Source: Draconibacterium orientale (GTDB lineage: Bacteria; Bacteroidota; Bacteroidia; Bacteroidales; JAADGE01). Taken from it: a stretch of 44,134 nucleotides of DNA. Of this stretch, positions 12,645 to 18,538 are shown piece by piece; within the stretch, counting starts at the first letter, position 1; the number at the start of each line of letters is the position of its first letter. Below the pieces are notes generated by a model. That model had not been told where the DNA came from. It did not search any database and worked only from the letters and a program-made list of their open reading frames with translations. The DNA is taken from positions 1-44,134 of the forward strand of contig DZBS01000013.1 of NCBI GenBank assembly GCA_022729995.1. Reading direction: 5' to 3'. Both the position numbers and the translations under genes were made by a program.

Positions 12645-13844
12645 CTATAAATTATCTACTATAACTTTAGTGTCTTGAGCAATAACAAGCTCTTCATTTG
12701 TGGGAACTACAATAACTTTTACTTTTGCATTGTCTTTAGAAATTATAGTTTCTTTTCCTCTAACTTTATTTTTGTCGGAGTCTAATTCTACACCCATAAA
12801 TTCGAGTTCAGAACAAATATCAAATCTTGTTTCCGGACCGTTTTCGCCAATTCCTCCGGTGAAAACAATTACGTCAACACCGCCCATTGCTGCTGCATAA
12901 GAACCGATATATTTTTTTACTCTGTAGGCATACATTTCAAGTCCGAGAATTGCTCTTTCATTTCCTTTAGCAGCTGCATCTTCAATTTCTCTCATATCGG
13001 ACGAAACACCGGTAATTCCGAGCATTCCGCTAAATTTATTTACAAGAATATTTGCAACTTCACGCCCGATTTCTTCTTTTTCCATTATAAAAGTTAAAGC
13101 TCCGGCGTCTATATCGCCAACTCTGGTTCCCATGATTAAACCTTCAACCGGAGTAAATCCCATTGATGTATCAAATGATTTACCGTATTTTATGGCAGCA
13201 ATTGAAGCTCCGTTTCCTAAATGACAAGAGATTATTTTTAAATCTTCGGCTTTTTTTCCTAAAATTTCGCAAGCTCTTTGGTGAACATATCTGTGGCTTG
13301 TTCCGTGAAATCCGTATCTTCTTATTTTATATTTTTTATACAAAGCATAAGGAATTCCATACATATATGCTTTTGCAGGCATTGTTTGATGAAAAGCCGT
13401 GTCGAAAACTCCAACTTGCGGAATTTTTGGTAAAAGTTCTTTTAAAGCATAAATTCCTTTTAGATTCGCAGGATTATGAAGAGGTGCAATTTCAATATTG
13501 TCTTCTAAAACTTTTATAACATCGTTTGCCAAGTATACGCTTCCGCTAAAAAATTCACCGCCGTGAACAACTCTGTGTCCCACGGCATTTATTTCGTCAA
13601 GAGTTTTTATACATCCGTGTTTGGCACTGCTCAAAACACCCAAAATATATTCAACGCCAATTTTATGATCAAGAACGTCTCCTTCAAACATTATTTTTTC
13701 ACCGTTTGTATTTTTATATTTTAGAAACGAGCCTTTCATTCCAACTTTTTCTACAACACCTCCTGAAATTACATTTTCGGTATTCATATCGAAAAGTTCG
13801 AATTTTATGGAAGAACTTCCACAATTCAATACTAATATTTTCAT
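12645..13844 (-). CDS. ackA: Acetate kinase
   Basis: The enzyme converts acetyl-phosphate and ADP to acetate and ATP, the energy-yielding last step of acetate fermentation. All ASKHA-fold signatures are present in 399 residues: VLNCGSSSIKFELFD at the N-terminus, GHRVVHGGEFF, FDTAFHQTMP with the catalytic Asp and His region, GFHGTSHRYV and the nucleotide-binding CHLGNGASIAA, then FTGGIGENGPETR. It is third in the minus-strand cluster pta / dehydrogenase-like / ackA, 27 bp after the dehydrogenase stop, implying one transcript. Confidence 0.97.
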   Translation of the reverse strand: MKILVLNCGSSSIKFELFDMNTENVISGGVVEKVGMKGSFLKYKNTNGEKIMFEGDVLDHKIGVEYILGVLSSAKHGCIKTLDEINAVGHRVVHGGEFFSGSVYLANDVIKVLEDNIEIAPLHNPANLKGIYALKELLPKIPQVGVFDTAFHQTMPAKAYMYGIPYALYKKYKIRRYGFHGTSHRYVHQRACEILGKKAEDLKIISCHLGNGASIAAIKYGKSFDTSMGFTPVEGLIMGTRVGDIDAGALTFIMEKEEIGREVANILVNKFSGMLGITGVSSDMREIEDAAAKGNERAILGLEMYAYRVKKYIGSYAAAMGGVDVIVFTGGIGENGPETRFDICSELEFMGVELDSDKNKVRGKETIISKDNAKVKVIVVPTNEELVIAQDTKVIVDNL

Positions 13845-13871: not shown

Positions 13872-14855
13872 TTATTTTTTCGGACAATCAACAATTGCTT
13901 CTTGGTTTTTAAGTTTCTTTCCAAAGGAATCGTAATTATAAAATCCTTCGCAAGTTTTTCGTCCAAAATGCTTAGCTCTAACCAATTTTTTAATTATTGG
14001 CGGAGCTTTATATTTAACATCTCCAAATTCTCTATACAAATTTTCCATCCAACGTTCAACTCTGTCTATTCCAATTTTATCGGCCATTTCAAACGGGCCG
14101 AGAGCCAGTCCTAATCCGTGTCGAGCAACAAAATCAATATCTTCTTTGTTGCTTACTCCTTCCATTAGAAGTTCGCATGCTTCGGCAATTAAAGCAACTC
14201 CAAGCCTAACGCTCACAACTCCCGGCGATTCTTCAACGGCAATTGGAATTTTATTTATAAGTTTACAAAATTTTCTGATGTTTTCGCAAACTAAAGGAGA
14301 TGAATATAAACCTCTTACAACTTCTACAATACTTGCATTTGGTGCAGTTGTAGAAAAATGCAAACTTATACATCTATCTTTGTGTTTTAAATCCGCTGAA
14401 AGTTCTGTAATTACCGATGTTGAAGAATTTGTTGCAATAATTGCTTCGGAACTTACATTTTCCTCAATATTATGGAAAATTCCTTTTCTTATGTCGCGAC
14501 TGTATTCTCTTGTTTTAGACAAAATTGATTCTATAACAATATCGCAATCTTTAAAATCTTTATAAGTTAAAGTTCCTTTAATTCTCGACATAATCAGTTT
14601 TTTTTCAGATTCTGTCATTCCCCAATGATTTATTTTTTCATCGAGTTGTTCTCCAATTTCTACAATTGCTTCTTGAATTTTTGCTTCTTCAATATCTAAA
14701 AATACAACTTCTATTCCTCTTGAAGCGATCATTATTGTAATGCTTTGTCCGGTTGTTCCGCAACCAACAATTCCCACTTTTGAGAATAGCATTTTTGGTC
14801 TGTTTTGCACACTTAATGCAAAATCGTTTAATTGTTCTGTTATTATTTCTGACAT
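13872..14855 (-). CDS. 3-hydroxyacyl-CoA dehydrogenase-like protein with altered active site
   Basis: This 327-residue protein has the two-domain 3-hydroxyacyl-CoA dehydrogenase architecture. An NAD-binding Rossmann domain comes first (VGIVGCGTTGQSI, 27-39; acidic FLDIEEAK), then the helical domain (MADKIGIDRVERWM) ending HFGRKTCEGFYNYD. The catalytic His and the Glu 12 residues later are present in LHFSTTAPNASIVEVVRG. The usual HFFNP is HFSTT, and the usual PGFxxNR is PGVVSVR, so two Asn residues of the normal active site are missing. It sits between pta and ackA with 23- and 27-bp gaps, so all three are very likely co-transcribed. The substrate is uncertain: a short-chain 3-hydroxyacyl-CoA is the default, but a different ligand is plausible. 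Confidence 0.85.
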   Translation of the reverse strand: MSEIITEQLNDFALSVQNRPKMLFSKVGIVGCGTTGQSITIMIASRGIEVVFLDIEEAKIQEAIVEIGEQLDEKINHWGMTESEKKLIMSRIKGTLTYKDFKDCDIVIESILSKTREYSRDIRKGIFHNIEENVSSEAIIATNSSTSVITELSADLKHKDRCISLHFSTTAPNASIVEVVRGLYSSPLVCENIRKFCKLINKIPIAVEESPGVVSVRLGVALIAEACELLMEGVSNKEDIDFVARHGLGLALGPFEMADKIGIDRVERWMENLYREFGDVKYKAPPIIKKLVRAKHFGRKTCEGFYNYDSFGKKLKNQEAIVDCPKK

Positions 14856-18253: not shown

Positions 18254-18538
18254 TTAATTTTTAAAATCCGGATTTTCAATTAAATCCATTCCGCAAACCG
18301 GGCATGTTCCGGCTTTGTCGGAATCACTTCCTTTGCAATGCATCGGGCAAATATATTTTGCAACTTTCTCTGTTTTATTTGCATCATTTTTTGTTACTTT
18401 AGACGAATCTGTCGTTTCGGATTTATTAACTTTTGCCGAGTCTGCATTAGTTTCCGAGCTTTCGGTTCCTCCGCAAGAGAATAAAAACAAAATTGCAACA
18501 ATTGCAAAAGAACTCAATATTAAATTAAATTTCTTCAT
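18254..18538 (-). CDS. Lipoprotein with heavy-metal-binding domain
   Basis: This 94-residue lipoprotein has lipobox Cys at residue 22 (LFLFSC), followed by a Ser/Thr/Lys-rich linker (about 25-60). A short C-terminal metal-binding domain begins YICPMHC and ends CPVCGMDL. The CPMH...CPVCGM pattern is that of the domain found at the ends of copper/heavy-metal efflux pumps and CusB-like proteins. It probably sits in the outer or inner membrane facing the periplasm and binds Cu or a similar soft metal. No efflux genes are adjacent. Confidence 0.88.
   Translation of the reverse strand: MKKFNLILSSFAIVAILFLFSCGGTESSETNADSAKVNKSETTDSSKVTKNDANKTEKVAKYICPMHCKGSDSDKAGTCPVCGMDLIENPDFKN

Follow-up and report, generated by a model that had tools for sequence, protein, structure and literature searches.

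When Bacteroidota ferment, the formation of acetate through phosphate acetyltransferase (Pta) and acetate kinase (AckA) yields ATP. Porphyromonas gingivalis belongs to the order Bacteroidales. Its tandem pta and ack genes are reported to be cotranscribed, and inactivation of either one succeeded only when a copy was provided in trans (PMC6461089). Staphylococcus aureus offers a precedent for a partner encoded next to Pta: the gene for LipL is linked to pta, and LipL binds Pta and affects acetate production (PMC13155669). In the part of the open-access literature covered, which takes in few subscription papers, no mention of a dehydrogenase gene between pta and ackA was found, an absence that carries little weight.

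3-Hydroxyacyl-CoA dehydrogenases use a His-Glu mechanism (PMC10988713). In the numbering of the C. butyricum enzyme, His138 is catalytic, Ser117 and Asn188 recognize the substrate, and contacts with the CoA moiety are made by Lys56 and Asn221 (PMC10470551). The same source describes CsTfD of C. scatologenes, a triacetate-forming (S)-3-hydroxy-5-oxohexanoate dehydrogenase of phloroglucinol degradation; according to a figure legend, its gene cluster includes acetate kinase and phosphate acetyltransferase genes (PMC10470551).

Here, the window, that is, the whole stretch of 44,134 nucleotides analyzed from Draconibacterium orientale, carries a 3-hydroxyacyl-CoA dehydrogenase homologue inside a pta-ackA cluster:

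12645 to 13844, minus strand: ackA, acetate kinase, 399 aa (PF00871; TIGR00016 above cut-off)
13872 to 14855, minus strand: 3-hydroxyacyl-CoA dehydrogenase homologue of the pta-ackA cluster, ORF of 327 aa
14879 to 15880, minus strand: pta, phosphate acetyltransferase, 333 aa, single PTA_PTB domain (PF01515; TIGR00651 above cut-off)

As an earlier sequence-only reading had noticed, the homologue lies between pta and ackA with short gaps. These measure 23 bp to pta (upstream) and 27 bp to ackA (downstream), and all three genes are on the same strand. The ORF after ackA is on the same strand at a distance of 230 bp, and the ORF before pta is on the opposite strand. Given the short gaps, the 230-bp space downstream, and the opposite-strand ORF upstream, the three genes are likely to form an operon. 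A scan for promoters and terminators was uninformative: it marked 35 promoter-like sites, where shuffled sequences gave 21.8 on average, and a single terminator-like site, which lies on the plus strand. Unlike this cluster, the P. gingivalis operon consists of pta and ack only, without a third gene (PMC6461089). LipL differs from the homologue in being an unrelated lipoic acid transfer enzyme (PMC13155669).

The window protein belongs to the 3-hydroxyacyl-CoA dehydrogenase superfamily, with PF02737 at residues 26 to 209 (137.6 bits) and PF00725 at residues 213 to 308 (88.6 bits), both above curated cut-offs. Its best PDB matches, 4kug, 4kue, and 4kuh, were taken to be the C. butyricum (S)-3-hydroxybutyryl-CoA dehydrogenase, and its best NCBIfam matches are likewise 3-hydroxybutyryl-CoA dehydrogenases. 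For 4kue, the assignment to the C. butyricum enzyme is given in PMC6333283. These matches would suit a 3-hydroxybutyryl-CoA dehydrogenase of the ordinary kind, working in spite of the substitutions described below. We consider this very unlikely, because the NCBIfam scores are far under the cut-offs (244.7 against 408 for NF004474; none of the 20 models listed is reached), because the window's own genome also has a canonical paralogue (L002, G000:C17) with all the residues, including intact HFMNP and GFVANR motifs, and because the homologue falls in a separate clade with a support of 100. A longer homologue in the same genome (L003, G000:C71; open frame of 811 aa, 28% identity) would be of the FadB type, judged from its length. 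A scan of viral contigs for relatives of the window protein found none. The predicted structure of the window protein, based on an alignment of the window and five loci, was of low confidence (mean pLDDT of 50.7, pTM of 0.46) and was set aside.

The clade of 3-hydroxyacyl-CoA dehydrogenase homologues containing the window protein is called the window family, and a genome with such a gene is called a carrier. The family was searched for within Bacteroidota. In the order sample of 393 genomes, which includes the window's, 163 match the window-family profile at E <= 1e-75; 11 of these matches, between 3e-80 and 1e-75, are canonical enzymes by score (the one in G023 was read and is canonical), which leaves 152. 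Scores are at least 415 bits among the family places listed, with a few others lower, and 260 and 266 bits for the two canonical enzymes among the class-search matches. Eight of the 295 genomes of the class sample match, one being the window's and two canonical, and in one family outside the order all four genomes (4/4) match. In the phylum sample, 47 of 395 genomes match at E <= 1e-82; apart from the window's own genome, these are 46 matches outside the class, at 281 to 318 bits, which are referred to as the sister group.

In a tree of 67 proteins (27 family, 14 sister, and 26 canonical), the family and the sister group were separated from the canonical enzymes with an SH-aLRT support of 100, and each of the three groups made up one side of a branch; trees were built at a quick setting, with SH-aLRT as the sole support measure. 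W78 and the N-terminal extension are common to the window family and the sister proteins. On the simplest reading, the ackA-linked lineage would predate the split of the sampled classes, with transfer between classes as an alternative that could also produce this distribution.

For residue mapping, the window protein was aligned to the C. butyricum enzyme, whose numbering is kept for reference positions. Conservation was counted over 101 distinct window-family members (129 rows longer than 250 aa minus repeats, with fragment L021 left out). Of the sister proteins, 29/46 were in the alignments, and the remaining ones were checked at the His and Asn positions only.

14784 to 14855, minus strand: N-terminal extension, residues 1 to 24, not in canonical paralogues
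14748 to 14765, minus strand: NAD-binding GxGxxG, residues 31 to 36, the three Gly invariant in 101/101 family members
14622 to 14624, minus strand: W78, Trp in 101/101 of the window family, 29/29 sister proteins aligned, and 0/25 canonical paralogues
14505 to 14519, minus strand: five-residue insertion, residues 113 to 117, preceding R123 (the Lys95 equivalent)
14421 to 14423, minus strand: S145, the Ser117 position, with Ser in 24/101, Thr in 51, and Ala, Ile, Asn, or Pro in 26
14358 to 14360, minus strand: H166, the catalytic His138 position, His in 97/101 window-family members
14349 to 14351, minus strand: T169, mapped to the Asn141 position of HFFNP, which is HFSTT in the window
14322 to 14324, minus strand: E178, the Glu150 position, dyad partner of the His, Glu in 101/101 window-family members
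14208 to 14210, minus strand: V216, the Asn188 position of GFxxNR, which is PGVVSVR in the window, Asn in 0/101

The alignment thus bore out the two altered motifs that had been read from the sequence, HFSTT for HFFNP and PGVVSVR for PGFxxNR. Among the other mapped positions, Asn115 corresponds to N143, Asp31 to D54, and Lys95 to R123. Like the C. butyricum enzyme, to which it is homologous over most of its length, the window protein has GxGxxG, an acidic residue after strand 2, the His-Glu dyad, and the Asn115 equivalent. Unlike that enzyme, it has an N-terminal extension, a loop insertion, a fixed Trp78, and linkage to pta and ackA. The extension comprises about 23 to 24 residues in the window protein, with E10 kept in 92/101 and L14 in 99/101 family members, and the residues preceding the first motif Gly number 30 (median) in the window family versus 7 in canonical paralogues. 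The five-residue insertion differs in length among relatives and is missing from canonical and sister proteins. At the Ser117, His138, and Asn188 positions, the window protein has Ser, His, and Val, an incomplete set for a 3-hydroxybutyryl-CoA dehydrogenase. All four CoA-contact positions are changed, with E73 for Lys50, H77 for Lys54, G79 for Lys56, and G249 for Asn221. We presume that Lys50 and Lys54 are CoA contacts, and the roles of Lys95, Asn115, and Asn141 are likewise our assumption.

Across the window family, the cofactor site is preserved. GxGxxG and the acidic residue after strand 2, the marks of Rossmann NAD(H) binding, are both found in 101/101 members, as is Glu at the Glu150 position; Asn occurs at the Asn115 position in 99, Arg at the Lys95 position in 98, and His at the His138 position in 97. 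The motif glycines and the Lys95 and Asn115 positions remain conserved, and the His and Glu positions are among the most conserved columns. The Asn188 position, which is Asn in all 25 canonical paralogues examined, is Asn in none of the 101 family members (V, T, I, L, A, M, F, or S instead) and in none of the 46 sister proteins, and the Asn141 position is Asn in 1/101 family members. With such counts, the Asn losses seen in the window are neither chance nor sequencing error. Lys or Arg occurs at the Lys50 position in 16/101 members and at the Lys54 position in 34/101, with His at the latter in 52. The Lys56 position is Gly in 101/101; this position and that of Asn221 do not discriminate, since both vary in canonical proteins as well. 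By column entropy, the family percentiles are the 59th for Ser117, 62nd for Asn188, 66th for Lys54, 67th for Asn141, and 98th for Lys50. The 25 canonical proteins show no variation at Ser117, Asn188, Lys54, or Asn141, and at Lys50 they have either Arg or Lys. The window family therefore departs from the C. butyricum enzyme in lacking Asn188 and Asn141, in Lys50 and Lys54 positions that are usually not basic, and in a variable Ser117; in these alignments, the substrate-recognition positions of the window's clade vary roughly as much as the average column and are unconstrained.

A functionless passenger kept by operon inertia would account for this variable pocket and for nothing further. Such a passenger is hardly credible in view of the invariant NAD motif, the 21 positions that are conserved in the 101 window-family proteins and not common to canonical paralogues, and the retention of the homologue in two carriers with genomes of 1.0 to 1.2 Mb.

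The pocket of the sister group is more uniform. All 46 proteins have Thr in place of Asn188 and retain His138; among the 29 aligned, 27 retain Asn141 and 26 retain Ser117. Apart from a single substitution, the sister group has the look of an enzyme. This uniform Thr pocket and the dyad kept in most window-family members are the strongest points for the main rival explanation, in which the homologue would be an active NAD-dependent dehydrogenase of a small non-CoA 3-hydroxy acid or carbonyl compound, its product feeding or draining the acetyl-CoA/acetyl phosphate pool, as with CsTfD. We regard this as possible, though rather improbable. In its favor, the NAD site is kept along with the dyad in most members, the His is retained throughout the sister group, and CsTfD, which the homologue resembles in being a superfamily member without the CoA-contact residues and in having acetate kinase and phosphate acetyltransferase genes in its cluster, shows that loss of the CoA contacts can accompany use of a free acid (PMC10470551). 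However, CsTfD keeps the catalytic His and the substrate-recognizing Ser and Asn, whereas the window family is without the Asn and variable at the Ser; the window protein, having lost the Asn, is not of this type, and phloroglucinol genes are absent from its three-gene cluster (for CsTfD, PMC10470551). Among the ORFs of those loci that were looked over by eye, no recurring pathway gene was seen. In addition, three lineages of the window family are without the His.

In these three lineages, the His138 position is Asn in G034, G439, G534, and G672 (4/4 genomes of family f15 examined), Asn in G385, G640, and G575 (3/3 of family f144), and Tyr in G536. The tree requires three changes, so that the window family has parted with the catalytic His on at least three occasions. 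The earlier statement that the protein keeps the His-Glu dyad thus holds for the window protein but not across its family. All eight His-less loci (8/8) have a pta match upstream, and 7/8 have ackA downstream; ackA was not found in the G575 locus (L240). Without the His base, a protein should be unable to catalyze the usual reaction in the normal way, but the gene has kept its place.

Linkage was counted in 103 carriers with fetched loci, which were selected to cover many families and are not a random sample; the counts exclude profile matches without fetched loci. Downstream ackA was counted as direct when on the same strand and less than 400 bp away, and distances were measured between aligned ends. 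At window-family loci, ackA is directly downstream in 96/102 with enough flank, pta is directly upstream in 82/101, and both are present in 79/103, with median gaps of 72 bases to ackA and 47 bases to pta. In six further carriers, ackA was found in 5/6 and pta in 6/6. The expectation that the three-gene order would be conserved was therefore upheld, and linkage in relatives is not loose. Six of the 102 are without ackA downstream. They include G314 and G648, where pta is beside the homologue and ackA is not (in G648 it is elsewhere, and in G314 none was matched at E <= 1e-30), and G359, G388, and G406, where neither gene is beside the homologue and ackA is elsewhere in the genome. In the sixth, G006, the copy of the homologue has an in-frame TAG, and pta and ackA are both absent within 1.1 to 1.5 kb. 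Neither pta nor ackA was found at canonical paralogue loci (0/23, with flanks of about 1.5 kb, one flank being only 0.5 kb). Of 23 genomes of the order without the homologue, 22 have ackA, with pta directly upstream in 13 of these (one of the other ackA loci has only 180 bases of upstream sequence). The homologue thus comes and goes in the middle of a pta-ackA pair that is otherwise ordinary.

In the sister group, ackA directly follows the homologue (gap of up to 330) in 44/46 loci, and no pta match was found upstream (0/46). The tie to Pta is therefore not general, and AckA would be the more general partner. The two sister exceptions, G736 (L165) and G907 (L166), belong to family f195 and have ackA on the same strand 2.5 and 2.0 kb downstream; a third f195 genome, G705 (L167), has ackA directly after the homologue. 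Between the homologue and ackA, L165 and L166 have a gene that is presumably RnfC-like, judged from its sequence, and L165 has one more ORF before ackA. The RnfC-like gene is possibly a further redox link.

The metabolic context was assessed in 43 carriers. Thiolase (PF00108) had strong matches in 20, weak matches only in 4, and no match at E <= 1e-10 in 19. The four weak matches sit in frames of 332 to 343 aa and, from this size, are probably FabH-like. In 17/43 carriers, the window-family protein is the sole PF00725 match. On these counts, a role needing acetoacetyl-CoA or beta-oxidation partners is unlikely as a general function.

It had been suggested from the sequence that the homologue may act on another acyl-CoA; an unusual one from a propionate, butyrate, or branched-chain route would be a candidate. 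Its superfamily membership, the strong thiolase matches, and the fact that Pta and AckA enzymes handle propionyl compounds too would agree with this. The suggestion is weakened by the loss of Asn188 throughout and the unconstrained Ser117, Lys50, Lys54, and Asn141 positions; the low counts of basic residues at the two Lys positions, the carriers without a thiolase match, and the uniform Gly at the Lys56 position, although the latter varies in canonical paralogues too, point the same way. Overall, we judge an unusual acyl-CoA substrate to be unlikely.

We favor the explanation, to which we give about even chances, that the homologue is an NAD(H)-binding pseudoenzyme that arose from a 3-hydroxybutyryl-CoA dehydrogenase-like ancestor and became dedicated to the Pta-AckA acetate node, where it probably assists or regulates acetate formation. 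The cofactor site is kept, the substrate site is relaxed, the His base has been lost repeatedly, and linkage is strict for ackA and usual for pta, all of which point to an accessory or regulatory role; this combination of linkage and site pattern would be expected of an accessory or regulatory protein derived from an enzyme. At the sequence level, support comes from operon-like linkage in more than one class of the phylum, the intact NAD motif, loss of the substrate-recognizing Asn, repeated His loss with pta and mostly ackA still flanking the gene, and presence in genomes without a thiolase match. As a mechanism, the homologue would be made together with Pta and AckA and would bind Pta, AckA, or both, with the conserved N-terminal extension as the candidate contact, and its occupancy by NAD+ or NADH would alter the formation of acetyl phosphate or acetate. 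Of the two sensor roles proposed earlier, that of an NADH sensor fits the conserved NAD site, and that of an acyl-CoA sensor would fit less well.

Several observations speak against a pseudoenzyme. A dyad that is mostly kept (His in 97/101, Glu in 101/101) would be unexpected had it never been used, the sister proteins are enzyme-like, and strong thiolase matches occur in nearly half of the carriers assessed (20/43). Linkage also deviates in G314, G648, G359, G388, and G406, and the sister group is without pta. An ancestral enzyme that turned regulator in the window's clade would reconcile the kept dyad and the Thr pocket with the pseudoenzyme explanation.

In Escherichia coli, NADH is reported to inhibit the long Pta by way of its N-terminal region. 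Because the window Pta is short and has a single domain, NADH could conceivably be read by a separate partner. Tentatively, and with more doubt than confidence, we propose that an NAD(H)-reading pseudoenzyme that predates the class split in Bacteroidota binds AckA and/or Pta and links cellular redox to the production of acetyl phosphate and ATP, as a separate-protein counterpart of the redox control in long Ptas. If the homologue reads NAD(H), redox control of acetate output would be directly testable. Automatic annotation is likely to name the homologue a 3-hydroxybutyryl-CoA dehydrogenase, which would place false beta-oxidation or butyrate steps in metabolic models.

Compensation for a missing Pta domain was also considered and is unsupported. 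Ptas are short at 107 loci with the homologue (some genomes being included more than once) and at 13 loci without it; since genomes without the homologue also have short Ptas, it is not needed to replace the missing domain.

Some loci have additional features. In the two genomes of 1.0 to 1.2 Mb, L228 (G648) and L230 (G314) consist of pta, the homologue, a coaD-like gene, and a peptidase-like gene, the names being given by eye. At L207/L227 (G345) and L233 (G406), ackA occurs twice in tandem, with the G406 homologue on another contig. In the window itself, a small ORF at positions 18254 to 18538 (minus strand) is lipoprotein-like and, with its motifs CPMH and CPVC, resembles by eye a heavy-metal-binding domain. 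Locus L160 (G037:C74:12000-20400) carries, in tandem, pta (matched in three pieces), homologue, ackA, homologue, and ackA. Its two homologues fall in different tree subclades, as if the homologue-ackA unit had been acquired or anciently duplicated.
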